Origin: a virus
Virus record (IMG/VR): IMGVR_UViG_3300015263_000634
Location: 1-53,211 of that record
Length of the DNA: 53,211 bases
Reading direction: 5' to 3' (one strand)
Under the pieces are notes generated by a model. The model made no database searches, had not been told where the DNA came from, and saw nothing but the letters and a program-made list of their open reading frames with translations. The position numbers were made by a program, and so were the translations under genes. This document shows positions 10,121 to 53,211 of the stretch, piece by piece (positions within the stretch are counted from its first letter, which is position 1; each line of letters begins with the position of its first letter).

Positions 10121-11374
10121 ATGCCTATAAGCAGTGATCTTCTTCCAGATTGGTATCGTATCCTTCAGTCCAGCCAGCAGGCAGGGCCTCAACCGAACAT
10201 GAGCCAGCCACAGATTCCCATGTCGCAATCCACTGTGCCGGTTGACCAGATACAGCTTCCTGAACACAAGTACGATTATTTTGGATTGCGGGATTGGTAT
10301 GATCGTTACGGTGCTGCAATCAACAGGATCAAGGCAGGTGGACCGGCAGTCGAGCCTACAGGTTCTTCGACAGCAAGCGTGAACGCTCCTCTCTCTGCCA
10401 CCGCATCCGGCACAGCCAATGTGGATAATACCCCGCTTCCGACCTCCCCTTCCGACAATTATGGGATGAACCGCAGCCAGTATACGCCGCATTACCAGTT
10501 CGGTATTGCCGACCGTCCCGACACGCCACGAGATACATCCGGCCTTCTTGGTGGAGGAACAGGGGAAGCACTCGGTCAGTTGTACAAGGAATATGGACCG
10601 AAGGCCTATGATTACGTGATGAAGAAAAATCAGGAAGCCCTTGATTATCTTCGTAAAAAGAGGGCCGACAGGGAAGCGCAAGCAGCCAAGGAAGCTGACA
10701 AGCAATCGATCAATGACATGCCGCAGGTCCCTCTTGGACCGGCCTCTTCGCGACCGGCAGGGACCAATGCCCCGGTGCAGCCGGGAAAAGACTTGGAGAC
10801 CCAAGACAACACGCAGACGCAGCCGTCGTCTCTCGCAGATTATTTCAAGCAGGCCGATGCATTCTACAAGCAGGCTGGCATCAATCCTGATTACAAGAAT
10901 CCCTATCAGGAAAAGGCAGATGCTTATGCACAACAGGAACTGAAAAGGACAAAGGCTCTCGCTCAACTGGCTCTCGCCGCTGGTGTAACATCAGCCGGTG
11001 GAGGTGCATGGCAACAGGTCGGCCAAGGCTTCGCCAATGCAGCCGGTGCTTATGACCAAGGCTTCAGACGTTATCAGCAGGCTCTCCAGAACTCCGCCGA
11101 CCGGTATCAGCAATTGACAAATCAGGAGTTCAAGAACCGTCAGTCCAAGGCAGAGTTCGCTCTCGGCCTCTACAAGACAGAGGCAGCTACCAATCTTGCA
11201 AGAGCAAAGCAGGGATGGGAGCAGGAGAAGCAAAGCCGTGATGACATCAAGAGTTTCTTCGCCACCATCATGAAAGATGTTATCGATCCTCAAGAGAAGG
11301 CAAAACTACAGGCGGCTTACGAGCGTTCTCTCCAGTTGGGACGAGTGACGCTTCCAACTGATGTAAGGAAGTAA
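10121..11374 (+). CDS. Putative internal virion protein, Gln/Ala-rich
   Basis: A 417-residue protein with a disordered Pro/Ser N-terminal half and a predicted alpha-helical C-terminal half (about 245-417) that includes NPYQEKADAYAQQELK, a small hydrophobic LALAAGVTSAGGGAW patch and repeated Tyr/Gln heptads. No family recognised with certainty. The stop codon overlaps the start of the giant polyvalent protein by 1 bp, suggesting the two are made together and may act together in ejection. Confidence 0.6.
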   Translation: MPISSDLLPDWYRILQSSQQAGPQPNMSQPQIPMSQSTVPVDQIQLPEHKYDYFGLRDWYDRYGAAINRIKAGGPAVEPTGSSTASVNAPLSATASGTANVDNTPLPTSPSDNYGMNRSQYTPHYQFGIADRPDTPRDTSGLLGGGTGEALGQLYKEYGPKAYDYVMKKNQEALDYLRKKRADREAQAAKEADKQSINDMPQVPLGPASSRPAGTNAPVQPGKDLETQDNTQTQPSSLADYFKQADAFYKQAGINPDYKNPYQEKADAYAQQELKRTKALAQLALAAGVTSAGGGAWQQVGQGFANAAGAYDQGFRRYQQALQNSADRYQQLTNQEFKNRQSKAEFALGLYKTEAATNLARAKQGWEQEKQSRDDIKSFFATIMKDVIDPQEKAKLQAAYERSLQLGRVTLPTDVRK

Positions 11375-14300
11375 TGGGATATGTAACCTATAGGCGTCCA
11401 GACGGGACGTCAGCAGACTTTATCATTGCCGGTGATGCCCCAACGCCTGATGAACAGGCTCGCATAGATGCCAACCTTTCCGGCAAAACTCTCCCATCTT
11501 CCTCCCCCGATACAGGCCCCGGCGTTATTTCCTCCGGTATTGCCGGACTCATGCAGGGCGTTAATCAGTACCAAGCCAATCTCTATGAAACAGGTGCTGG
11601 AATAGCCCATGCTCTCGGTAGCAAGTCTTGGGAGGATTGGGCACTTGAGCAGGCCAACAAGCAGGCACAGGAAGCAGGTCAATACACTGTCGGTGAGAAA
11701 GGTGCCCCCTACGTAGCCGGATTGCTGGCGCAACAGGCCCCCCAAATGGCTGGCGGTTGGGGTGGAATGATCGGAGGTGGCGCTCTCGGAGGTGCCATTG
11801 GTGGACCTCCCGGTGCAGTTATTGGCTCGGTTGTCGGTGGCCTTGCTGGCATTTACCCCACAATGCTTGGGCAGCATGTAGAGGAGCAGCAGAAGGTCAA
11901 CAATGGACAGGTCAAGGATTGGGGCAAAGCTGCGGGATGGGCCGCTCCTGCAACGGCCAGTGAATTTGCTGGCAACCTTATAGAGTTGGCTGTTGCCGGT
12001 GTAGCCAGCAAGGTCCCGATGGCAAAGCCCCTTCAGGCAGCAATAACCAAGGCTCTTGTCGGTGGTCCTGTACGCAAGGCTTTGACCCGCGTAGCCCTGT
12101 CTTCAGCAGCCGGTGCCACCACAGAACCAATAGAGGAGGTTATCCAGCAAGCTATCCAGAGGGCACAGGCAGATGAAAGCCTGACGTCTGATGAAGCGAA
12201 AGCACAATACGTTCAGGCTGCGGTTCAGGCCGCGATTGTTGGCGGTGTTTATGGTGTCGGTGCCGGTACAGTGGGCCATGTTATCGACACGAGAGAAGAA
12301 AACAGGATCAACGATGTAATCAAGAACGTTGAGGACAAGGCCCGCAAGGTGCAGCAGATGTACCAGACTGCGGACGAGACTGACCAGCAATTCTACGATG
12401 AAATGATGAAGAAGGAGCAGGATGCCTTTATCAAGCAGAAGCTTGAACAGGCACCCCAACTCCCGGCTCCCCGTGGCGATCAGACTGTAGACCAAGCCGT
12501 ATGGGGAAAGCAATCCATACCCCTTACCGACAATACAGTCTTTACTGAAGAAGAGCGTAACCGCGCTCTCGAAGCGGTGCGCGGGGAAAAGAAATTCTCG
12601 CCTGACAAGATAAGGCGCATGGCAAATCTGGGGCGGAAGAATGCCAAGAACGACGCAAAGGCCTTGGCCATCTTCAACTCTCTCCTCGAAAGAGGGGACG
12701 CCCAGAAAGCTGGCAAGTACGCCACTATCAATTCGAATGAAGTTAATCGGGAATACAAGGTGGGTCCTGTTCCAGATACGCAGGCCGAACCTTACCTTCT
12801 ACAGACAAAGGATCGCACTCTCACCAAGCGGTTCTCCACTGAACAGGAAGCGCAGAAATTCGCGGATGAGCAAGGCCTGAAAGGCTTTGAGATAACAAAG
12901 GATGTGTCAGAAAAACATGGTGTTTATTCAGTTACCACTCACAAGGGCGGAGCGAAGAACGGAGAAGTAATCTCCACGCAGCTTGTCCATGCATATGATA
13001 CCCCGCAACAGGCCATAGAGGCTGCTCGCGGGTTCGATCCGAAGTTCTCCCCTGAAACCAACCAGATCATAAGTGCAGGTGAACATGAAGGTATCCGCCA
13101 GAAAGTCCTTGGTGAACTCCAGAAGAAACGTCAAGGCGATACTGCGGAACTATCGAATGCAATTAACGAATTTGCCAAGACTTTGCTTGGTGAACACGCT
13201 GTCAAAGTTCAGATCACTCCCAATCTTGCGGGTCCAGCGGCACAGTCTTTGGCAGAAGGAAGGACAGCCCAGATACGTGACGAGAAGACCCAGAACGGCT
13301 TCTCTCATCTTGTGCAGATTGCCGATGCTGTAGCGCGTGGCAACCCCAACGAGGCAATGGGAACCATGACGCATGAAGCAGTTCATGTGCTTCGTGATCT
13401 TGGCCTGTTCACGCCACAGGAATGGTCGGCCCTGAAATCCCTTGCCAACCAGAAAGTCCCCGGCCAGCGGTTCACTTGGATGGACCGCGCTCAAGCCCTG
13501 AATGCACAGAACCCTACTGCCAATATCCATGAGGAAGCAGTGGCGGAGATGACAAGGGCTTACCGTGAGAAGCCTGACAGCTTTACCAAGCAACATAGAA
13601 ATATTCTTCAGAAGATATTTGATTTCATCAAGCGTCTTGTAGGTGTCGAGAAGAATAACCCATTGGCACTGAAGACAATGCAGGACATCCTGTCCGGCCA
13701 GATTGGCCAGAGGGAAGCAGGATCGAAAGCTGCCATGAGAGACAGGCTCGGTCCAGTCTGGTCGCAGGTTCCGATCAAGCCATTCTATCTTCAGACAGAC
13801 AAGGCTATCGAGCGGGTCCCGCAGGAAACCATGACGCCCAAGCAATGGCTTGGTTTCCTCAAGAACCAGCAGCAGATAAAGCCAGAGGAACGCCAATGGC
13901 TTGGCCTTGAGCAGTGGCTCGAAACCCTTCAGGAAGAAGGCGGAGGGCAGGTAGACAAGGCAGAACTCCAGAAATTCATCAGGGCCAACTCGCTGGCTAT
14001 CATCCCCCAAGAAAAAATATACGGTGGAATGTCGTCGGAAGATTATAACCGGCACGCTGTTCTCGATGAACATCTTTCGACCGCATACTACGAAGATACC
14101 AATGCCCATGATTTAAGCTTCGAAGCTTGGATCAACGATCAAATAAACAATAACAAGAAATATGCTAATGAAGCACAAGAACTTCGCCAGCTTGAGTTCG
14201 ATGCATTAAGAGAACCATTCCATGAAAGCACCACACAAGAAGGTGGCGATCAGTACAAGGAATTTGTCTTTACCCTCCCGCAACTTTTGGATGGCTTTGC

Positions 14301-17300
14301 AGTCAGTGGGCATTTCGGCGGCAAGAGAAATATTGTTGTCTCTGCCCGCACCAAGGTTCGTGACTATGCCGACGGCAAGAAAATCCTGTTCATCGAAGAA
14401 ATACAGTCCGACGTTCATCAGCGTGGCAGGAGATATGGATATGAGGGCGAGGATGTTCAGCCCCGCATAGACAAGCTGCGCAAGAAGATCGATGAGGTCC
14501 GCGCTCAGTATAGTGTAAAAGACAATGAGATGCGGGCTGCGGCCAAGACCCCCGGCCCGGATTATTCCAGATTGCGTAACGAGCGCGATGCCCTTGACAG
14601 GGAAATCAATCGTCTTGAGATGCAGCGTCATGATCTGGAATCGGCCTACAAGATTCCACAGGCACCATTCAAGACTACGTGGGATCAGTTCGCATTCAAG
14701 AAGCTTGTTCAACACGCAGCCGAACAGGGCCTTGATGGTGTCGCGTGGCATGGCAACGAGGAAAGTGTAGCCCTTACCGAAGGATACCCTGACCCATATG
14801 CCGAAGAATATTCCGGCATCATGGATTTCTACACGCGCCGTCTCGGTTCATGGGCCAAGAAGTTCTTCAAGAAATACGGTGCTGAAATCCAGTACATCGA
14901 TCCGACCGAAGGGCAAGGCCTGACCTATGACAACATAGCGCAGGATATGGCTGCACTTGGTCCTATCGACCCTGCATTCTTCACTGAAGCAGCGAACAAC
15001 ACACGCAATGAAGACATGCAGGTAAGGCTTCGTGCCGCCGCAAATATCCTTTCAAATCAAAGACCTACACAATCCTACCAAGATATAAAGTATCAAGACA
15101 TTTCCGATGCCGCCCATGTTGCTGGTTTAAGCCAGCCTATGTGGCAATACATGTGGAATGAGTATGAAGCAGGTCGCAGTACCCTCAATGACATATTCAA
15201 GCATGGTGCAGAGACTGCTTCTTCAGAAGATGAAAGGCATATATACCTTGAGGGAGACAAACAGCTATCGCAGATTAGAACTTGGTATGAAAGATACTCC
15301 ACGGAACAGGTTATCGATGCTCTCAAGAAAGCAGACATAACCGCTCCAGAATTTGATCTGCTCATGCGCCAGCAGATGGATATTCCCATCGAAGGGGATG
15401 CCAACCATAATCCTCTCGTTCCGCGCTTCCAGATGAACATGACGGACGAGTTGAAAACAACTGCCCTTCATGAAGCCTTCCCTGTTTTCTCTGCCATGCC
15501 TTCACCCAAGGCACTGGAAAACCTTCATGCTCGTCTGAAAGAAGACAGCAACTTCAAGCACTGGTTCGGTCTTTCGAAGGTTGTCGATCAGAATGGCGAG
15601 CCTGCGGTGATGTATCACTCCACTCGCAAGATACTTGTGCGCGGCCAGCAACGTCACGAGTTCCCAGAGTTCAATCATTTCTCCCACTTCGGCACAATAC
15701 AAGCAGCCCATGACCGCCTCGCCTTTGCTGGCATGGCCGACTTCCTTGAGCAGGACAAGTACCGTCTCTACCACATAGCCACAAAAGAGGGGGTCTTCAC
15801 TCCTGAAGAGATGGCAGAAATAGAGAGCGGGCGGAAGTACGACATTTACGGAAACAACTACGAAGATGAACTGAAGGACTGGTGGACGATGCTCGACAAC
15901 GATACTCGTTATGCGTTGATGAACATCGAATCGGACAACTGGTTTGACGGTGCCCGTCTGTATCCAATGTTCATGTCCATCAGGAACCCGCTCCGTATTG
16001 AGGATGATGGACGTAACCACACGCTCGACGATCTTATTCTATTCACGCAGGCGGGCGGAGCATTCGGTGACAATACAAGGATGTTCCTGACCAACATCAG
16101 GAACCCTGAAGTCAAGGCAGCGGAACTCACCAAGGCCATGAAGCGTGCCGGTTACGACGGGTGGGTCTACGAAAACACCATCGAAAGCCCCGGCGAAGAT
16201 TCATTCATCCCTCTTGAGAAGTGGCAGGCCAAGTCAATCTACAACAGGGGATCATGGAGCAAACTCGATCCACGCTATGATTGGTCTTCCGTCCCGGCAC
16301 CTGATGGCAGCAATCCGCAATGGGCGGCAACAGCCCCTCTCGGTGAACGTGTCAATGACCACATGTCGCGTGAGCGTTGGGAACAGATGCTCCAAGCAGC
16401 AACTTACAACAACCTCGCCCCAACACTGAAGAAACTGAACACTATCCTGCCGGATAAATACAAGCATCGCTTCGACAGGCTCGTGGACAGCGGCATTTAT
16501 AACCTTCAGGACCGCATGGTTGGTGTGGCTGAACTGATTGACATGGTGCGCAAGGAAGGCGGGACCGTTACCAATGACAACGATACTTTCCTGAAGGAGC
16601 GCCTGTTCCCCGGACAGACCGACGCCGAATTGCAGGACAGGCAGAAGGACCTGTACACGCCCTTCATCGACCGCATCCATTCTCTTGGCATCTCAAGCCA
16701 GACGCTGAACGAACTGGCCGCTCTCAATCAGAGCGCAGAAGACATCATCAACAACTACGCAGAAATCACTGACGAGGCTACAGGAGAGAGGGCACAGGGA
16801 CGCAACCTCGCCATGGCCGAACTGATTCTCTACGCCCTCCATGCGCAAGAGAGAAACGCGGAAATGCGGCTTCGCAATGAGCGCGTCGCTGATGTTCGTA
16901 CCGACCAGTACAATGCAGGGTCCGGCATGTCCGATGACCATGCCGAAGCTATCCTAAACTATGTCTTCGGACGTCCCGATCTTGCGGCCAAATTGACCGA
17001 CCTTCGAAACGAGAACTCCATCCGTTCAATGTTCCGCAGGCTCATCGCCAACACCAATGCCCGCAGGGTTGCCGGACAAATTTCTCCTGACTTCACGCAG
17101 ATAGAGACACGGGCCAACTATCAGGACTATGCGCCCCTGAAGGGTTGGCTGGAGGAACATTTCAACGAAGACGAAGACGCCAACATCTTTGCCCGTACCG
17201 GCAAGGGATACTCGATACGCGGCAAGGAAGACATGAGTGCATTGGGTCGCCGCCGCCTTGCCTCACATATCATTTCCAATGCCATCCTCCAGAATGAAGA

Positions 17301-19296
17301 AGCCATCATCAGGGCAAAGAAGAATGAGGTTGGCCGGTCATTCCTCCAGTTCATCCGTGACAATCCAGACCTCACCTTGGGTGCGGCACAGATCATTGAG
17401 ACACGCCCCGTCAAGTGGGGTCTCGACAGCAGGACCGGTTCCGTCCGCAGGATGACAGACCTCGGCTTCCAGAACCGCAAGGATATTCTGACAGTCAAGG
17501 AAATGGGTGAAGACGGAAACATCAAGGAAACATACATCCAGTTCTCCGATCCGCGTGTGGCGGAAGCCCTGACAGTCAAATCGTCTCTCGGAAATGCAGG
17601 CCTCGGTGTTGTGATGAAGACCTTCTTGAAGGTCAATCATTTCCTTGGCCAGTTAAGCACCTCGTTCAACCCGGAGTTCTGGCTTTCCAACTTCCCGCGT
17701 GACTTCCAGACAGCAATGCTGAACCTGTCGGAGCAGGGTATAGAGGGAATACGAGGGCGTGTTGCCAAGGACACGCTGCCTTCCCTCTACTCGATTTTCC
17801 GTTACACGAGGGATAACAGCTACACCGATTCTTGGACCGATACCTTCCTTGAGTTCCGCCGCCGTGGCGGCATGTCAGCCTTCATGGGATTGCGTGACAT
17901 AAATGACACGATGAAAACGGTCGAACGGCTTGCCACTGAAGACCCGTCCAAGATGAAGGACTTCGGCAGGAAACTGTTCAGATCAACCGGCCAGCTTGTC
18001 GAGGACATAAACCTTGCCATTGAGAATGGAGTACGACTGGCGTCATACAAGGCAATGCGGGATGCCTACATCGAGATGGGTGCCACTCCCCAAGAAGCCA
18101 TGGACAGGGCCGCATACGGTGCCAAGGAACTGACCATCAACTTCAATGCAGGCGGCAACCAGAAGCCTTTCTGGAACTCCATGTATCTCTTCTTCAATGC
18201 ATCCATGCAGGGATCGATGGCACTTATCAATCCATTGATCCGCTCCAAGAAGATGCGGAGAATGTGGGGAACCATCATGCTTGCTGGCGTGATGCAGGAC
18301 CTGCTCATGTCCACTCTCATGCCTGATGAATACGATGACATGAAGGACTGGATTCTCGAACACAACATTATCCTGCCCAACATCTTCGATCCAAACGGAA
18401 AAAGCTATATCAAGATTCCTCTCCCTTACCTGATGAATGCCGTCTACAATTCAGGCAGGGCGATGAGCCGTGCCGCTCGTGGCAAATACAATGCAGGAGA
18501 AACATTCAACACCATCGCCGGTTCTTATCTTGATGCCCTGAATCCATGGGGAACAGGCGGCAACGCCTTCATCAACTTCCTTGCCCCGACCATAGCCGAT
18601 CCTATTGTTGACCTGACCTACGGAAAGAACTTCACGGGGGCACCAATATCGCCTGAAGGGGCTGCCTATGGACCGAAGGTGAAGGACAGCCAGCTTTACT
18701 GGAACAACACCAACCCTCTGGCAATCAGTGTGGCTGACTGGATGAGCAGACTATCCGGTTCACAGGGAACCTATCTCCCCGGTCTGGTAGAAGTATCACC
18801 GAACTCCATCGAGTATCTTGTCGATTACGCTACGGGTGGTGCCGGTACTTTTGTCAGAAGGCTGTGGGATTTCATGCCGTTCGTTCCAATGTCGCAGAAC
18901 ATTGTTCAGGAATGGGTAAAGACCGGAGACATTTCGGCCAACGACGTCCCCATGGTCCGGCGCTACATCGGCAACATGTCCTCTCGTAACGATCTTGAGA
19001 GGTACATCACCAAGCGCGACAAGGTAATGGCAGTGCGGCAGGAACTCCGGCTGGCTGCGATGAGCGGTGACAGCCAGCATTACCTTAACGTGATGGCTGA
19101 ACATCCGGTTGAGTACAGGCTCACTCAGCAAGTGAACTCAATTGAAAGTGAAAGACGCAAAATATCGCGTCAAATCAAGTCGATACAAAGGAACAAGTCG
19201 ATCCCCGAAGCGGAAAAATCCCGTATAATTCTGATGCTTAAAGAGCGCCAGAACCAGCTTGTGGGTCTTGGTCTGGAAGTAATGGGAGGGACATGA
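11374..19296 (+). CDS. Giant polyvalent virion protein: metallopeptidase, ART-like, LPD38-like
   Basis: A 2,640-residue protein, the largest in the window. Features in order: a Gly-zipper hydrophobic region at 125-165; a zinc-peptidase motif HEAVH at 667-671 with possible third ligands Glu720, Glu721 or Glu725 (IHEEAVAEM); a FIEEIQSD block at about 1006-1013, common in polyvalent proteins; an ADP-ribosyltransferase-like region at about 1394-1640, with WFGLSKVVDQNGEP, YHST at 1414-1417 and an NRGSW-type close; and a C-terminal alpha-helical LPD38-like region at about 2085-2480 (FNPEFWLSNFPRDFQTA). Polyvalent proteins of phages and plasmids combine such domains and are thought to enter the recipient with the DNA (Iyer, Aravind and colleagues). 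I infer it is ejected and may modify or cleave host targets. It is started at the ATG overlapping the previous stop. Confidence 0.8.
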   Translation: MGYVTYRRPDGTSADFIIAGDAPTPDEQARIDANLSGKTLPSSSPDTGPGVISSGIAGLMQGVNQYQANLYETGAGIAHALGSKSWEDWALEQANKQAQEAGQYTVGEKGAPYVAGLLAQQAPQMAGGWGGMIGGGALGGAIGGPPGAVIGSVVGGLAGIYPTMLGQHVEEQQKVNNGQVKDWGKAAGWAAPATASEFAGNLIELAVAGVASKVPMAKPLQAAITKALVGGPVRKALTRVALSSAAGATTEPIEEVIQQAIQRAQADESLTSDEAKAQYVQAAVQAAIVGGVYGVGAGTVGHVIDTREENRINDVIKNVEDKARKVQQMYQTADETDQQFYDEMMKKEQDAFIKQKLEQAPQLPAPRGDQTVDQAVWGKQSIPLTDNTVFTEEERNRALEAVRGEKKFSPDKIRRMANLGRKNAKNDAKALAIFNSLLERGDAQKAGKYATINSNEVNREYKVGPVPDTQAEPYLLQTKDRTLTKRFSTEQEAQKFADEQGLKGFEITKDVSEKHGVYSVTTHKGGAKNGEVISTQLVHAYDTPQQAIEAARGFDPKFSPETNQIISAGEHEGIRQKVLGELQKKRQGDTAELSNAINEFAKTLLGEHAVKVQITPNLAGPAAQSLAEGRTAQIRDEKTQNGFSHLVQIADAVARGNPNEAMGTMTHEAVHVLRDLGLFTPQEWSALKSLANQKVPGQRFTWMDRAQALNAQNPTANIHEEAVAEMTRAYREKPDSFTKQHRNILQKIFDFIKRLVGVEKNNPLALKTMQDILSGQIGQREAGSKAAMRDRLGPVWSQVPIKPFYLQTDKAIERVPQETMTPKQWLGFLKNQQQIKPEERQWLGLEQWLETLQEEGGGQVDKAELQKFIRANSLAIIPQEKIYGGMSSEDYNRHAVLDEHLSTAYYEDTNAHDLSFEAWINDQINNNKKYANEAQELRQLEFDALREPFHESTTQEGGDQYKEFVFTLPQLLDGFAVSGHFGGKRNIVVSARTKVRDYADGKKILFIEEIQSDVHQRGRRYGYEGEDVQPRIDKLRKKIDEVRAQYSVKDNEMRAAAKTPGPDYSRLRNERDALDREINRLEMQRHDLESAYKIPQAPFKTTWDQFAFKKLVQHAAEQGLDGVAWHGNEESVALTEGYPDPYAEEYSGIMDFYTRRLGSWAKKFFKKYGAEIQYIDPTEGQGLTYDNIAQDMAALGPIDPAFFTEAANNTRNEDMQVRLRAAANILSNQRPTQSYQDIKYQDISDAAHVAGLSQPMWQYMWNEYEAGRSTLNDIFKHGAETASSEDERHIYLEGDKQLSQIRTWYERYSTEQVIDALKKADITAPEFDLLMRQQMDIPIEGDANHNPLVPRFQMNMTDELKTTALHEAFPVFSAMPSPKALENLHARLKEDSNFKHWFGLSKVVDQNGEPAVMYHSTRKILVRGQQRHEFPEFNHFSHFGTIQAAHDRLAFAGMADFLEQDKYRLYHIATKEGVFTPEEMAEIESGRKYDIYGNNYEDELKDWWTMLDNDTRYALMNIESDNWFDGARLYPMFMSIRNPLRIEDDGRNHTLDDLILFTQAGGAFGDNTRMFLTNIRNPEVKAAELTKAMKRAGYDGWVYENTIESPGEDSFIPLEKWQAKSIYNRGSWSKLDPRYDWSSVPAPDGSNPQWAATAPLGERVNDHMSRERWEQMLQAATYNNLAPTLKKLNTILPDKYKHRFDRLVDSGIYNLQDRMVGVAELIDMVRKEGGTVTNDNDTFLKERLFPGQTDAELQDRQKDLYTPFIDRIHSLGISSQTLNELAALNQSAEDIINNYAEITDEATGERAQGRNLAMAELILYALHAQERNAEMRLRNERVADVRTDQYNAGSGMSDDHAEAILNYVFGRPDLAAKLTDLRNENSIRSMFRRLIANTNARRVAGQISPDFTQIETRANYQDYAPLKGWLEEHFNEDEDANIFARTGKGYSIRGKEDMSALGRRRLASHIISNAILQNEEAIIRAKKNEVGRSFLQFIRDNPDLTLGAAQIIETRPVKWGLDSRTGSVRRMTDLGFQNRKDILTVKEMGEDGNIKETYIQFSDPRVAEALTVKSSLGNAGLGVVMKTFLKVNHFLGQLSTSFNPEFWLSNFPRDFQTAMLNLSEQGIEGIRGRVAKDTLPSLYSIFRYTRDNSYTDSWTDTFLEFRRRGGMSAFMGLRDINDTMKTVERLATEDPSKMKDFGRKLFRSTGQLVEDINLAIENGVRLASYKAMRDAYIEMGATPQEAMDRAAYGAKELTINFNAGGNQKPFWNSMYLFFNASMQGSMALINPLIRSKKMRRMWGTIMLAGVMQDLLMSTLMPDEYDDMKDWILEHNIILPNIFDPNGKSYIKIPLPYLMNAVYNSGRAMSRAARGKYNAGETFNTIAGSYLDALNPWGTGGNAFINFLAPTIADPIVDLTYGKNFTGAPISPEGAAYGPKVKDSQLYWNNTNPLAISVADWMSRLSGSQGTYLPGLVEVSPNSIEYLVDYATGGAGTFVRRLWDFMPFVPMSQNIVQEWVKTGDISANDVPMVRRYIGNMSSRNDLERYITKRDKVMAVRQELRLAAMSGDSQHYLNVMAEHPVEYRLTQQVNSIESERRKISRQIKSIQRNKSIPEAEKSRIILMLKERQNQLVGLGLEVMGGT

Positions 19297-48230: not shown

Positions 48231-48383
48231 TGGCGATCTGTCCCGTAGGGACAAAAACCTATTGGTATTCGGCGGATGGTTTGGCTTGGCCGATCCCCGT
48301 AGGGGATTGTCGGGGATGGTGGCGGAAAAGTTTTTTTCTTGATATATTTTTGCTCATCGAAGATGAGCAGCGAGGTTATCAAG

Positions 48384-48857
48384 ATGGGCGATGACGATGG
48401 CAAGGTTGTAGATTTACCGGTGGTCAACAACCGGCAGTTGACGGCAAAACAAGAGAAGTTTGCCCAGATGGTGGCTAATGGTTCAACAAAATCAGAGGCT
48501 TACCGCTCATGCTACAATGTATCCAACATGAAACCAGAGAGCATTTATAGCGAAGCAGTGAAGACTGCGGCCAACCCTATAGTTGCCCAACGGATTAGTG
48601 ACATCGTTGATAGCATACAGTCCAAGATGATGGCGGATTCAGTACGGATCAGACGTCATGTCGTAAAGAGGTTGTATGAAGAGAGCATAGACCGCGACGA
48701 GGGGACCGCTTCGACAAGGCTCAAGGCACTGGAATTGTTGGGTCGCATGGATATTGTAGATATGTTTAGCAGGAAGGCAGAGAGCAGTGCAGAACAGCGC
48801 AGTGCAGAAGAGATAGCGAAAGAGTTGAGGAACAAGATCAGGGATATGATGCGATAG
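48384..48857 (+). CDS. Small terminase subunit-like protein
   Basis: A 157-residue protein. Residues 18-75 (RQLTAKQEKFAQMVANGSTK, SEAYRSCYNVSNMKPES) have the TerS-type N-terminal HTH followed by AANPIVAQRI. The C-terminus is helical (SAEEIAKELRNKIRDM). It would recognise the packaging site and hand DNA to the large subunit. The ATG at 48384 follows GAGGTTATCAA; earlier ATGs lack sites. No large subunit follows it in the window. Confidence 0.75.
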   Translation: MGDDDGKVVDLPVVNNRQLTAKQEKFAQMVANGSTKSEAYRSCYNVSNMKPESIYSEAVKTAANPIVAQRISDIVDSIQSKMMADSVRIRRHVVKRLYEESIDRDEGTASTRLKALELLGRMDIVDMFSRKAESSAEQRSAEEIAKELRNKIRDMMR

Positions 48858-49741
48858 CAGCCCGCAATGAGGACTGGACTGAACGAAGTGAAGGAAGGCC
48901 GCGAGACCAGCCGATAGTCCATTCCCACAATGATAATAAGCCACCATACTATAGTATGCTCCAGTATTATGGGGATTGCCGATTGGTTGGCTTGGTCATG
49001 GCGATGGTAACTGTGCGTTGGATTGTGTGGTTACTATGTGTGATGATGAGGTAACATCGTACCACATTCCCTCACTGCAAGATGGACCGCTAAGCCATTG
49101 ATATTGCTGGACTTTCGCCACATCGGGTCGATGTAGGTGAACTGTGCCACCAGAATAAGAATCCTAATGTTTTCAACTACTTACCTCACCCCCCTTGGGG
49201 ACCCCGCGTGCGCATATGTGATGCGTCGCACATACTATACAAATCTCCTCAAACGCCCACCATTCACACACTGCACGAATCGATCCACCGGCCATTTTGG
49301 CCGCTCGCAGCATAATTTCGCGCATAAGTAGGTATAAACCCCGGTAGGAGTCCCATTTTCTCACCGGCACTAAACTTGTGGTTTGTATGGAAACGCGGAT
49401 TCTGTTACGAAAACACAGGAGTCCCAAAAAAATTATTATAAAAATTTTATGAACAAATCCAATGGGTTGGGCACCCAAGTTGAAGTGTTACATTAGTCGC
49501 GTACTTCATATTGAAGTGCCTTATTAAGTAAATGGCGTAACCCCATAGAAACATTAAGAAATTAACTTTGAGACGGTTTCTGAGTGTGGCAGGAGGGTGT
49601 TCAAAACAGAGACGGCGGAGCAGCAGGTTACACAGCAAAATCTGTTACAAATCAATTGGTTATAAGAGATGTGTTACCGATTCTTATACTAACAAACAAA
49701 CAAATTGGCCTTTCCCCCACGCTGAGCATGGGGCCTTTCCC
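48858..49741. other. Gene-poor tract with small repeats
   Basis: No ORF with a good start is visible. Features: a perfect 14-bp palindrome CATACTATAGTATG (48945-48958); two copies of AGGAGTCCCA (49346-49355 and 49417-49426); two TTGAAGTG repeats near 49.48 and 49.51 kb; an AT-rich stretch at 49,425-49,450; GTGCG/CGCAC and CCGGT/ACCGG hairpins. Position next to TerS would suit a packaging, origin or attachment function, none of which I can prove. Confidence 0.45.
49288..49303. repeat. Palindrome GGCCA-NNN-TGGCC, copy 6
   Basis: CGGCCA-TTT-TGGCCG core, 6-bp arms, in the gene-poor tract. Confidence 0.6.
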
Positions 49742-49785
49742 TTGACGCCGAACCGGGATGGGGCTACCGTGGCGACAGAAAGTCG
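49742..49785 (+). promoter_or_regulatory. Possible promoter and CGAC-N5-GTCG operator before the microprotein array
   Basis: TTGACG (49742-49747), 17 bases, TACCGT (49765-49770, weak). The exact palindrome CGAC-AGAAA-GTCG (49773-49785) lies about where transcription would start, 10 bases before the first ATG. A CCCCA/TGGGG hairpin lies just upstream. Confidence 0.5.
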
Positions 49786-49795
49786 GAGACGTCCC

Positions 49796-49957
49796 ATGAG
49801 AAGGTTTTACATATTTAACGACCAACCGGAATCCTATTACCCGAGGTTTCTTTGGCATGGAAGAATGTCCCTGTGGAGAAGCCGGACGGCAATAATAGCG
49901 GTTCTTGAGAATGAGAAGCGGCGTGAAGAAAGTAAGGTTCAGAAGAATTATGTATGA
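49796..49957 (+). CDS. Microprotein array member 1 (53 aa)
   Basis: MRRFYIFNDQPESYYP..., basic and aromatic. Core motif PRFLW, then a charged helical end. GGAGACGTCCC precedes the ATG. It overlaps the next gene by 8 bp. Confidence 0.65.
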   Translation: MRRFYIFNDQPESYYPRFLWHGRMSLWRSRTAIIAVLENEKRREESKVQKNYV

Positions 49958-50057
49958 TCCGCCACAGTATGAGTGGGGCGAGCATACACTCACCAAGACG
50001 AAACATTTGGCAAAATTGGTTGCCGCCAGACCGTGGTGTTTGAGGTTGAAATGGTAG
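49950..50057 (+). CDS. Microprotein array member 2 (35 aa)
   Basis: MYDPPQYEWGEHTLTKTKHL..., core motif PQYEW, basic end with RPWCLRLKW. A competing 29-codon frame from 49954 is less like the family. Ribosome site weak (AGAAGAATT). Confidence 0.5.
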   Translation: MYDPPQYEWGEHTLTKTKHLAKLVAARPWCLRLKW

Positions 50058-50215
50058 TGTTTGAATTGCACGAAGGGATGGAATTTATCAATGGAGAATG
50101 GAGCGAGGTCCCGATTTACAGGTGGATCGCCCACGACCTGTACAAGAACAAGACGGTTGCCACGTTTATCGCAAATAAGAAAAGGTTCTTGGAACTTTCA
50201 GTGAGGAAATGTTGA
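50051..50215 (+). CDS. Microprotein array member 3 (54 aa)
   Basis: MVVFELHEGMEFINGEW..., core motif PIYRW in EVPIYRWIAHDLY, basic end. TTGAGGTTGAA precedes the ATG. Confidence 0.65.
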   Translation: MVVFELHEGMEFINGEWSEVPIYRWIAHDLYKNKTVATFIANKKRFLELSVRKC

Positions 50216-50367
50216 GAAAACTTGTATTCACAAGATGGGGAAGTCGGGCAATACGGCCCGTATACAGATGGCAGTTTTCCGCTATTTGGCACCGTGCGCC
50301 ATGGATGGGATTGAATATGCTGGAGAAACAGAATGCTGAACTTCTCAAAGACAGGGAAAGTGCCTGA
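50209..50367 (+). CDS. Microprotein array member 4 (52 aa)
   Basis: MLRKLVFTRWGSRAIRP..., core motif PVYRW followed by QFSAIWHRAPW. It overlaps both neighbours; GTGAGGAA precedes the ATG. Confidence 0.65.
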   Translation: MLRKLVFTRWGSRAIRPVYRWQFSAIWHRAPWMGLNMLEKQNAELLKDRESA

Positions 50368-50491
50368 ACTCAAATGGGTAAGCTTCATGTTCTGGTGGCA
50401 TAGCCCGAGGATGGGCCTGATTTCTGTTGGAGCGCAGAATGAAATAGGCTGGTTCAAGACAACACAAACCCGAGGATACATGGGGCAGTGA
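50333..50491 (+). CDS. Microprotein array member 5 (52 aa)
   Basis: MLNFSKTGKVPELKW..., core motif PELKW followed by VSFMFWWHSPRMG. GGAGAAACAG precedes the ATG; overlap with the previous gene is 35 bp. Confidence 0.65.
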   Translation: MLNFSKTGKVPELKWVSFMFWWHSPRMGLISVGAQNEIGWFKTTQTRGYMGQ

Positions 50492-50492
50492 G

Positions 50493-50618
50493 ATGCGGAT
50501 TTTTTACCAGCATGGGGCTAAAGGCTTTCCCGTCTTCTACTTCGGATCATATTCCATGTACACCAAGAACGCCAAATACATGACTATCGTCATCGACAGG
50601 AAGTGGGAGGAAAGATAA
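50493..50618 (+). CDS. Microprotein array member 6 (41 aa)
   Basis: MRIFYQHGAKGFPVFYF..., core motif PVFYF (Trp replaced by Phe), then GSYSMYTKNAKYM. Begins 1 base after the previous stop. Confidence 0.6.
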   Translation: MRIFYQHGAKGFPVFYFGSYSMYTKNAKYMTIVIDRKWEER

Positions 50619-50621
50619 GCC

Positions 50622-50756
50622 ATGCCACTAACCAAATGGATATTCAGGAAGAATCCATCCCCCCTGTATTTCTGGCAGCGTCATTACCTGTACAGATATG
50701 CAGGTGCTGAGGTTTCCGAGAGTTTGGACGTATGGATCAGGGAGGGCAGGGTTTGA
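50622..50756 (+). CDS. Microprotein array member 7 (44 aa)
   Basis: MPLTKWIFRKNPSPLYFW..., core motif PLYFW followed by QRHYLYRY. GGAGGAAAGATAAGCC precedes the ATG; the stop overlaps the next TTG start. Confidence 0.6.
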   Translation: MPLTKWIFRKNPSPLYFWQRHYLYRYAGAEVSESLDVWIREGRV

Positions 50757-50878
50757 CCGTCTTTTACAGAGAGGATTACGTCTACCAGAGTTGGAAGAAT
50801 GTGCCGGTTTATGAATGGAAGAGATACTTCATCTACCGAGTCGTCTTCAGAAATGGCAGGTATGTTCACTACGATTAG
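50753..50878 (+). CDS. Microprotein array member 8 (41 aa, TTG start)
   Basis: Begins at a TTG after GGGAGGGCAGGGT. Core motif PVYEW in NVPVYEWKRYFIYRV, ending aromatic/basic (RYVHYD). Confidence 0.55.
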   Translation: MTVFYREDYVYQSWKNVPVYEWKRYFIYRVVFRNGRYVHYD

Positions 50879-50889
50879 AATGAATTGAA

Positions 50890-51015
50890 ATGGCAACAGG
50901 TAACCCAAAAACAGTGAACCAGCCTTCATTGGGCAGGTTCTATAAAGGATGGGCAGCAGAGCCTCCCACCATCATGTGGAGTGCTTGGTGGGTATTGGAC
51001 AGGAGGAGAAGGTGA
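50890..51015 (+). CDS. Microprotein array member 9 (41 aa)
   Basis: MATGNPKTVNQPSLGRFYKG..., core motif PTIMW in EPPTIMWSAWWVLD, Arg-rich end. The ribosome site is weak. Confidence 0.5.
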   Translation: MATGNPKTVNQPSLGRFYKGWAAEPPTIMWSAWWVLDRRRR

Positions 51016-51242
51016 AGAAGTACAGGATCGTAGTAACCAAGCAATCGGGGGGTGGGTATTCATACAGGGTGGAATCGAAGAACCGTGGGTTTGCTTCAGC
51101 ATTCGATGAGTGGGAAGGAGAAACTTACGTTTCATCGGAGCAGGAGGCATTGGCAACCATCAACAAGCTGATGAGGAAGGAAGAAACTATGAATTATAGA
51201 AAGATCATCCGCCTCCCCAAGAGAGTATGGTGGCCGTTTTGA
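51012..51242 (+). CDS. Small protein in microprotein array (76 aa, GTG start)
   Basis: GTG start after AGGAGGAGAAG, overlapping the previous stop. Beta-rich first half (KKYRIVVTKQSGGGYSYRVE), then a helix with QEALATINKLMRKEE; the end reads LPKRVWWPF, so the P-x-x-x-W pattern appears at the C-terminus. Confidence 0.6.
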   Translation: MKKYRIVVTKQSGGGYSYRVESKNRGFASAFDEWEGETYVSSEQEALATINKLMRKEETMNYRKIIRLPKRVWWPF

Positions 51243-51367
51243 TACGCTTCGTCAAGGATCATTTAGGTGTTCCGTGGTTCTATTCCGATCCAATGCATCT
51301 GTGGAGTACACGATGGAAGGACGGAAATATTATTGAACCACCAAGATATATCGGAGGAAACCGATGA
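51227..51367 (+). CDS. Microprotein array member 10 (46 aa)
   Basis: MVAVLIRFVKDHLGVPWFY..., core motif region VPWFYSDPMHLWSTRW. It overlaps the previous gene by 16 bp; AAGAGAGT precedes the ATG. Confidence 0.55.
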   Translation: MVAVLIRFVKDHLGVPWFYSDPMHLWSTRWKDGNIIEPPRYIGGNR

Positions 51368-51471
51368 GGCGCTTCTTCAGGAAAGCGATATTCATCAGGC
51401 CCATGCGGAAAGTGATGTATGTCCCAAATTTCAGGGCACCTCCCAAAAACATGTGGGTACTGTTGAGATGA
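51364..51471 (+). CDS. Microprotein array member 11 (35 aa)
   Basis: MRRFFRKAIFIRPMRK..., very basic, core motif PKNMW in APPKNMWVLLR. GGAGGAAACCG precedes the ATG; ATGA overlaps on both sides. Confidence 0.6.
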   Translation: MRRFFRKAIFIRPMRKVMYVPNFRAPPKNMWVLLR

Positions 51472-51593
51472 TCCGGTTCAGATCGAGATGGCTTTTCGTG
51501 GACGGGAAGTTTGTGAGGGTCCCCGGTATTTATTGGGTTGGATTGAAGATAAAGGTTCGGGAAAAATGGAAAGTCAAGAAGAAGAATGGATGA
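51468..51593 (+). CDS. Microprotein array member 12 (41 aa)
   Basis: MIRFRSRWLFVDGKFVRVP..., core motif PGIYW followed by VGLKIKVREKW. Very basic end. ATGA overlap with both neighbours. Confidence 0.65.
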   Translation: MIRFRSRWLFVDGKFVRVPGIYWVGLKIKVREKWKVKKKNG

Positions 51594-51976
51594 ACGAGCC
51601 GAACGTTCTCCCGGTGTTCTTTGATATGAACTACCACGGGGTCATCACTCGGCACCCAAACATGGGATTTCTGCGTGGGTATCTTCGTCTCCCTCCAAGC
51701 AACAGGTTTCATGGGAAGGGGTATGACGAAATTGATGTCGATGTTCATGGCGGTCTGACCTTCTTCCACCACAGCCTGAATATCGATATGAACAGGTGGG
51801 ATGAGAATACCGGTGGGTGGTGGATTGGCTTCGATTGCGGTCATTTCATGGATACGATCCCCAACTATAAAAAGTTCGACCGAGACTCAACTTACAAGAA
51901 TATCTGGTATGTGGTCAGAGAACTGGAAAGACTATACAAGCAGGTTAAAGATCAATCATGGCTGATACACAAGTAA
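51590..51976 (+). CDS. Conserved phage protein (WWIGFDCGH type)
   Basis: A 128-residue protein with GYDEIDVDVHGGLTFFHH and a GGWWIGFDCGHFMDTIP block, followed by a helical KNIWYVVRELERLYKQV end. The V-H-G-G-L-T plus WW-x-GFDC-x-H-x-x-D pair is a known uncharacterised family widespread in phages. The ATG at 51590 overlaps the previous stop after AAGAAGAAG. Not a member of the microprotein family except for an N-terminal LPVFF. Confidence 0.75.
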   Translation: MNEPNVLPVFFDMNYHGVITRHPNMGFLRGYLRLPPSNRFHGKGYDEIDVDVHGGLTFFHHSLNIDMNRWDENTGGWWIGFDCGHFMDTIPNYKKFDRDSTYKNIWYVVRELERLYKQVKDQSWLIHK

Positions 51977-52131
51977 AACTTCAGGTATTCTTCAGAGACT
52001 CCAAAGTAAACAGGAACGGATCACCGGAAGGTGTTCCGAAGCTGTATTGGGCAGGACAATGGAACCTACACAGGATTACATGGAATGAAACGATTCTTAA
52101 AAGAATACCCGATGTTTATAGAGAAATCTAA
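51958..52131 (+). CDS. Microprotein array member 13 (57 aa)
   Basis: MADTQVKLQVFFRDSKVN..., core motif PKLYW in GVPKLYWAGQWNLHRI. It overlaps neighbours by 19 and 47 bp. Confidence 0.6.
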   Translation: MADTQVKLQVFFRDSKVNRNGSPEGVPKLYWAGQWNLHRITWNETILKRIPDVYREI

Positions 52132-52228
52132 CAAACAAAGGAATTGGGTGTACGTCCCCCTGCTTTCTTGGGGAGGATTAGGGATAAGGAGAGGCGAGAA
52201 ATGGAATTTTATTTACTCGACGAAATAG
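52085..52228 (+). CDS. Microprotein array member 14 (47 aa)
   Basis: MKRFLKEYPMFIEKSNKQRN..., core motif PLLSW in YVPLLSWGGLGIRRGEKW, closest to member 12. AGGATTACATGGA precedes the ATG. Confidence 0.6.
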   Translation: MKRFLKEYPMFIEKSNKQRNWVYVPLLSWGGLGIRRGEKWNFIYSTK

Positions 52229-52626
52229 AGAACATAACGGGTTGGCCCCGTCATCGGATCATATATAACGAGAAGGTCAGGAAGTTCCCTCGCCGGTACA
52301 GGTCGAAGGTGGGGAAACCGCGCTGGAAAAAGACAGACATTGAGAAATGGATGGATGAGCAGGTGGGAGTGAGAGAGCAGATACTCCACCATTATCGCAG
52401 GAAAGGATGTGTCATCATCCGCGACGGCGGTGCCCTTGCGATTTATTCGCCACCGGGGTTTAATTTCAACGACGGCAACGCCCGCTACCACGTCAAGACG
52501 CTGGAAGACCATGACATTCCACGCCTCGATTTCAGGAACATAAGTATCGGACAATGCAAGGATGGGCCAAGATGTATCGTTTGCAATGAAGTGAGAGGAT
52601 GGATCAGTGAAGGGATTGGAGATTGA
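52201..52626 (+). CDS. AlpA/MerR-like HTH protein with unknown C-terminus
   Basis: A 141-residue protein. Residues 1-50 (LLDEIENITGWPRHRIIYNE, GKPRWKKTDIEKWMDEQ) have the excisionase/AlpA winged-HTH pattern. The C-terminus is beta-rich with GPRCIVCNEVRGW. It could regulate the array or act as an excisionase for the integrase at 25 kb (inference). AAGGAGAGGCGAGAA precedes the ATG. Confidence 0.65.
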   Translation: MEFYLLDEIENITGWPRHRIIYNEKVRKFPRRYRSKVGKPRWKKTDIEKWMDEQVGVREQILHHYRRKGCVIIRDGGALAIYSPPGFNFNDGNARYHVKTLEDHDIPRLDFRNISIGQCKDGPRCIVCNEVRGWISEGIGD

Positions 52627-52936
52627 AGAAGGAATAGCGACAGATCATGCGAGAGGCCGGATCAGGCAAAGGATAAAGGTTCCAAAGAGAGCGACGGACA
52701 GGGCGGTCAAATTGGCCTTGAAACGCGGTCATCCCCCAACATCCTATACAGGGGCAATGCGCAAGTATCTGGACAAGATAAGCCAGAAGACCATGCACTA
52801 CGGCAAAAATTCCATGCTGATCGTGTATGCCAAAAGCCTGTATATCTTCACCGGCACAGAAACTCCCGTCCTGATTACAGTGTGGAGGCTCCCGAAAAGG
52901 TTTCGGGACGTGAGGCCGAAGGGAATGGAAGAATGA
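52607..52936 (+). CDS. Conserved phage protein, GTG start
   Basis: A 109-residue basic protein (ATDHARGRIRQRIKVPKRATD, YTGAMRKYLDKISQ, a SLYIFTGTETPVLITVW strand pair, LPKRFR end). The order of an Arg-rich helix, a short helix and a Y-x-F-x-G-x3-T-V-x-x-LPKRF end is a recurrent uncharacterised phage family. GTG after GAGAGGATGGATCA. Confidence 0.7.
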   Translation: MKGLEIEEGIATDHARGRIRQRIKVPKRATDRAVKLALKRGHPPTSYTGAMRKYLDKISQKTMHYGKNSMLIVYAKSLYIFTGTETPVLITVWRLPKRFRDVRPKGMEE

Positions 52937-53115
52937 TAAGGAGTGTGTACATACCGGTAAATGATAGATGCTTTCTGTCCATCATCTGCTCCTCGTTCCA
53001 CATAACAAAGTATCTGGAAACCGACAAGGATTTTCTTCCGTGGATACAGGTCGGGCCAATGGTTTTCATGGTCCCGTTCGAAGACAGGAAAGAGAAAGGC
53101 TGGAGAACGGTATGA
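52933..53115 (+). CDS. Small protein in microprotein array (60 aa)
   Basis: MIRSVYIPVNDRCFLSIICS..., with a LPWIQVGPMVFMVPF segment resembling the family core without the Trp position. GGAAGA precedes the ATG, which overlaps the previous stop. Confidence 0.6.
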   Translation: MIRSVYIPVNDRCFLSIICSSFHITKYLETDKDFLPWIQVGPMVFMVPFEDRKEKGWRTV

Positions 53116-53211
53116 TGCACATACTGGAAATACGCAAAATCAATTTTGCCTTTGAAACAAGGTGCGAGTTTTACAGTGGTGAATACACTGTCGGCAGAAT
53201 ACCGTGGATCA
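53112..53211 (+). CDS. Next microprotein (partial, cut by window end)
   Basis: Starts MMHILEIRKINFAFETRCEF at an ATG overlapping the previous stop; the last visible residues are GRIPWI, the beginning of the family core. The 3' end lies outside the window. Confidence 0.5.
   Translation, partial: MMHILEIRKINFAFETRCEFYSGEYTVGRIPWI

Follow-up and report, generated by a model that had tools for sequence, protein, structure and literature searches.

The window analysed here, the whole 53,211-base virus record IMGVR_UViG_3300015263_000634 from a tailed phage, ends in a head-to-tail, operon-like row of tiny genes, most of which encode a single lineage-specific family of proteins of 35–70 residues. 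The array takes up the slot that separates the terminase genes terS and terL, its terL side being placed by gene order, and together with a sibling contig it comprises about 20 to 30 tiny genes, at least 25 of them seen. As read from their translations, the members share the core [V/F]-P-x-[Y/F/L/I]-x-W-x4-[L/I/F]-[Y/W].

Family matches of the window proteins include structural, ejection, exonuclease and primase/helicase proteins, and among named phages the closest found are Synechococcus phage MinM2 and its Planktothrix sequence twins, which share 37% identity in the one structural protein compared. A giant protein of 2640 residues (11374–19296), with matches to phrog_14770 and phrog_616, adjoins the ejection-type genes. 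Two further contigs come from this phage or a near-identical one: G001 (IMGVR_UViG_3300015263_000508) matches window positions 1–47351 at 99.9% identity in reverse orientation, and L067 (IMGVR_UViG_3300015263_000249) has terL in common with G001 and carries G001's upstream end. The array runs past position 53211; it is the contig that stops there. Because the window end and the start of L067 do not overlap, a central part of the array is absent from the contigs, none of which spans the gap. Gene order indicates that beyond 53211, across this gap, the window leads to terL. On the window, the slot contains the following features:

48339–48857, + strand: terS, terminase small subunit (PHROG phrog_51, E = 1.4e-8; Terminase_2 below cut-off); left boundary of the slot
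48858–49795, no strand: stretch of about 940 bp before the array, without convincing genes (ORF list, repeats); possible control region
49796–49957, + strand: m01, 53 aa, core YPRFLW
49911–50057, + strand: m02, 48 aa, core PPQYEW
50051–50215, + strand: m03, 54 aa, core VPIYRW
50209–50367, + strand: m04, 52 aa, core RPVYRW
50333–50491, + strand: m05, 52 aa, core VPELKW
50493–50618, + strand: m06, 41 aa, core FPVFYF
50622–50756, + strand: m07, 44 aa, core SPLYFW
50753–50878, + strand: m08, 41 aa, core VPVYEW (TTG start at 50753, TTGA overlap, better Shine-Dalgarno match)
50732, + strand: alternative ATG start of m08, giving 48 aa
50890–51015, + strand: m09, 41 aa, core PPTIMW
51012–51242, + strand: m10, 76 aa, doubtful member without a convincing core
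51239–51367, + strand: m11, 42 aa, degenerate core VPWFYS (TTG start at 51239, TTGA overlap)
51227, + strand: alternative ATG start of m11, giving 46 aa
51364–51471, + strand: m12, 35 aa, core PPKNMW at the C-terminus
51468–51593, + strand: m13, 41 aa, core VPGIYW
51566–51976, + strand: m14, 136 aa, non-member, phrog_2164 family of unknown function (E = 1.1e-22)
51958–52131, + strand: m15, 57 aa, core VPKLYW
52085–52228, + strand: m16, 47 aa, core VPLLSW
52201–52626, + strand: m17, 141 aa, non-member, weak match to an excisionase-type helix-turn-helix regulator (phrog_2790, E = 1.2e-4)
52607–52936, + strand: m18, 109 aa, non-member, phrog_16724 family of unknown function (E = 2.9e-11)
52933–53115, + strand: m19, 60 aa, doubtful member
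53112–53211, + strand: m20, probable member cut by the contig end (...GEYTVGRIPWI), read in frame; ATGA overlap with m19

The + strand is 99.5% coding from 49796 to 53115 and holds 19 complete small genes there, a 20th being truncated by the contig end. A count of ORFs of at least 35 aa with an ATG or GTG start and a Shine-Dalgarno match gives 14; Markov-shuffled sequence gives 4.7 ± 1.9, and the opposite strand 5. Shine-Dalgarno matches of at least 4 nt accompany 12 of the 19 array starts, against 18% of all ATGs, and for 14 of the 19 genes phage codon usage favours the annotated frame over the others. The tandem small genes noticed in an earlier, sequence-only reading are thus borne out by coding coverage and by the ORF excess over shuffled sequence. 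That reading described some 20 gapless genes with ATGA overlaps; the tight run stands, but true NTGA overlaps make up about one third of the junctions, the others being overlaps of 5–47 nt or gaps of 1–11 nt. Ordinary-sized non-members (m14, m17 and m18) lie inside the run, and the motif is not convincing in m10 and m19. No excess of sigma-70-type promoters was found before the array, and 48858–49795 had no Rfam match. By tblastn, m14 finds matches of about 30% identity in large Staphylococcus phages, and it bears a weak likeness to a MazG-like family; a scan with m14 returned two loci, both without the array. By eye, m18 resembles a small RNase or toxin-type protein, with no Pfam match, and single-protein scans with m18 and with TerS found nothing.

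How widely is the core shared? Of the 16 complete short window proteins, 14 contain P...W, against 2.0 ± 1.3 when each protein is shuffled, and the stricter P-x-hydrophobic-x-W in 11 of the 16 (0.65 ± 0.78 after shuffling). About 13–14 window proteins carry the core, fewer than the 15 or more initially counted. Three positions that played no part in picking the motif are also enriched: (i) V or F stands directly before the core Pro (position −1) in 12/19 proteins, with 2.9 expected; (ii) position +9 is hydrophobic in 14/18, against 7.2; and (iii) position +10 is aromatic in 9/18, against 3.4. All four Pro codons are used at the core Pro, where third-position pairwise identity is 0.31 and positions 1 and 2 are fixed. 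This freedom of the third codon position argues for conservation at the protein level.

The sibling contig L067 provided an independent test set, unseen when the motif was first noticed. At 37–1897 it carries ten further small genes (n01–n10), most of them members, followed by a glycine-rich gene and terL. A window-only profile of the 8-residue core picks out the L067 members (Fisher p = 4e-5, n09 and n10 not being independent), as does a 13-residue profile (Fisher p = 0.0014). Strict P...W is found in only three of nine L067 members; n04 is a non-member, and n03 and n06 are doubtful. An unsupervised Gibbs motif search on half-sets was unsuccessful, the sets being small and mixed, and was replaced by the anchored profile and by HMM splits with controls. 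HMMs built from random halves detected 37% of held-out members at p ≤ 0.05, compared with 4.4% for shuffled families and 6–14% for the small genes of three other phages. The sequence-only reading had staked the family on half-set profiles finding the remaining members above a shuffled background, and they do. Most readily detected when held out (median p < 0.05) were m01–m04, m08, m15 and m16; m10, m19, n01, n03 and n06 went undetected by the half-split HMMs.

The adjacent L067 genes n09 and n10 are 60% identical at the amino acid level (similarity Z = 36), with dN 0.34, dS 1.69 and dN/dS of about 0.2, and their sequences clearly mark them as tandem duplicates kept by purifying selection. Neighbouring window members are more alike than under permuted order (p = 0.0046; p = 0.059 for L067). 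Together, this pair, the alike neighbours and the detection by half-trained profiles support serial duplication and divergence, as first proposed: the row would have grown via tandem duplication and then diverged fast under protein-level selection. For most single pairs, too diverged for pair-by-pair proof, the data support common descent at the level of the family.

Searches for relatives were negative throughout. With 14 joined members as query, tblastn at E ≤ 10 returned no relative from 50,697 phage records. A peptide-pattern search of IMG/VR and a profile run across 23 related records gave no relatives outside the window phage's own contigs, which were also all that remained after a shuffle-calibrated motif score. 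Pfam, PHROGs, NCBIfam and PADLOC (which covers defence, not counter-defence, proteins) had no match to the array family, PDB sequences gave nothing below E = 0.28 for array members, none of these searches showed likeness to an effector already described, and the literature on tandem microgene arrays in phages yielded nothing specific. The earlier statement that no such family has been described holds within Pfam, PHROGs, NCBIfam, PADLOC, PDB, the 50,697 phage records and IMG/VR. So far, with search methods that are weak on such short, diverged proteins, the family appears restricted to the window phage lineage. Clusters of tiny phage genes are common; one family of 35–70 residues in about 20 or more tandem copies is undescribed in the libraries and papers searched. 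The array also illustrates what gene-calling length cut-offs can conceal.

In the relative G016, whose TerL and TerS are 69% and 38% identical to those of the window phage, the slot holds 6.3 kb of ordinary small genes at tight spacing, none with the motif; by eye they include a LexA-type helix-turn-helix protein, a GH19-type lysis enzyme and a glycine-rich protein. In G005, terS to terL measures only 860 bp. The MinM2 (L050) slot consists of a gene-poor stretch and a GH19 endolysin; an array suggested there by a crude count of P...W frames proved on inspection to be GC-rich chance frames. No array member was found in the terS–terL slots of G016/L131 or MinM2. Thus, the slot is variable and the family so far confined to the window phage. 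Directly upstream of terL, the inspected TerL relatives often have a small gene that is terS-like in size or position; bacterial genome contigs yielded no TerL relative. For both the window phage and a phage about 75% identical to it (L118), contigs break off within or next to the array, perhaps a sign of strain variation at this place. The TerL of L118, a second phage from the same sample, is 835 aa long (L118:209–2716) and contains some 345 extra residues, inserted in frame, that resemble an intein with a homing domain; the window phage's TerL has no such insertion. Beside terS of G016, palindromic repeats of the ACGTACTGTACG type are densely packed at L131:8289–8372 and may mark a control or packaging site.

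What might these proteins do? Almost every short member is aromatic and basic, with a net charge of +1 to +11. The 19-residue Kyte-Doolittle maximum mean is about 1.0 or lower in every one, and none has a hydrophobic segment of membrane-span strength. The original interpretation is thus partly supported: its duplication and its lack of a described family stand, and its host-interaction peptides, be they anti-defence, membrane or polymerase binders, stay conjectural. A holin or lysis role was rejected on the lack of hydrophobic segments and because a GH108-type peptidoglycan hydrolase, the likely endolysin, is encoded far from the array (2124–2699). AlphaFold2 modelled m03 as a beta hairpin plus helix (pLDDT 68) and gave no stable fold for m08 (pLDDT 52); a structure search against PDB had no match at E ≤ 0.001. 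The alternation of Pro, an aromatic or aliphatic residue and Trp would suit a beta strand. The core may be a structural anchor with variable flanks, and many versions could have been retained, each for a different host component, in host takeover or counter-defence.

By analogy with the SPO1 host-takeover module, we propose a host-directed role: phage genes that are small, arranged in tandem, confined to one lineage and lodged in a variable slot typically encode such proteins. The array may thus supply host-binding microproteins, basic and aromatic, that are peculiar to its lineage. Against this reading, the row includes non-members (m14, m17, m18, n04) and doubtful members (m10, m19, n03, n06), and no promoter excess precedes the array. 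The slot also lies upstream of terL and the packaging genes and is codirectional with them, and G016 carries its GH19-like lysis gene there, so early expression is not suggested. Because this orientation equally allows a late role, we hold the host-binding reading tentatively, at somewhat below even probability. The bolder form, a phage-made library of one small scaffold that duplicates and diversifies, each variant aimed at another host or defence protein, is unlikely. Such a one-scaffold library, if real, would resemble effector or antibody-like repertoires in construction. The array would allow a direct test of whether phages build host-binding repertoires through tandem duplication.

The same basic, aromatic composition and the position between terS and terL, in the direction of terL, would also fit late-infection binders of nucleic acid or virion, such as small packaging- or head-associated proteins. 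We consider this rather unlikely, as the family is absent from relatives with the same packaging genes and the slot is unrelated or short in two relatives. Alternatively, the locus could be a gene nursery, in which a permissive accessory slot lets genes amplify in tandem, the copies being under weak or short-lived selection and mostly without distinct function. Its occurrence in one phage lineage and the contigs ending in or next to the array, as in variable regions, are consistent with this idea; the dN/dS of n09/n10, a core kept at the protein level with free third codon positions, and the lack of any broken copies seen make it unlikely.

Could the likeness be largely a selected short motif, all members docking on one host or phage partner via the core, with copies adding dose or avidity? 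Conservation is indeed concentrated in the core, the flanks hardly aligning (mean column identity 12–21%), and the m08 model lacks a stable fold. However, the enrichment at −1, +9 and +10 and the alike neighbours indicate that more than the short core was inherited from a common ancestor, and a dose effect needs no such divergent flanks, so that we regard single-partner docking as quite unlikely. Very improbable, and already disfavoured, is the idea that the units are decayed pieces of one long repeat protein, or that spurious Trp-rich frames produce the pattern as an artefact of composition. The units are short and Trp-rich (5.4% Trp), and by eye the core has some likeness to beta repeats, WG repeats for instance, an identity that we rejected since Pfam gives it no support. 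The frame shifts from unit to unit, the units have their own starts, many with a ribosome site, the signal vanishes in shuffles that keep composition, and Pfam at E ≤ 10 returned no repeat family, the sole match being SH3_6 at 0.05.

Among known arrangements, the G016/L131 slot shares the position of the array and a glycine-rich gene at the terL side, found here in L067; unlike the array, it holds no family member, nor does the MinM2 slot. Anti-CRISPR operons with Aca regulators are runs of small phage genes usually unrelated to each other. The array is likewise a run of small genes that includes a helix-turn-helix gene (m17, with a putative regulatory role), but it is dominated by one family and matches none of the library models searched. 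The host-takeover module of SPO1 is located in the terminal region, is early by experiment, and consists of larger proteins that are not known to form one paralogous family. In this Bacillus phage the module comprises 26 mostly small genes (PMC6873191), and the array resembles it in clustering phage genes that are for the most part small, are specific to a lineage and have ribosome sites of their own. In contrast to the SPO1 module, the array is dominated by one family of 35–70 aa and is sited between terS and terL.
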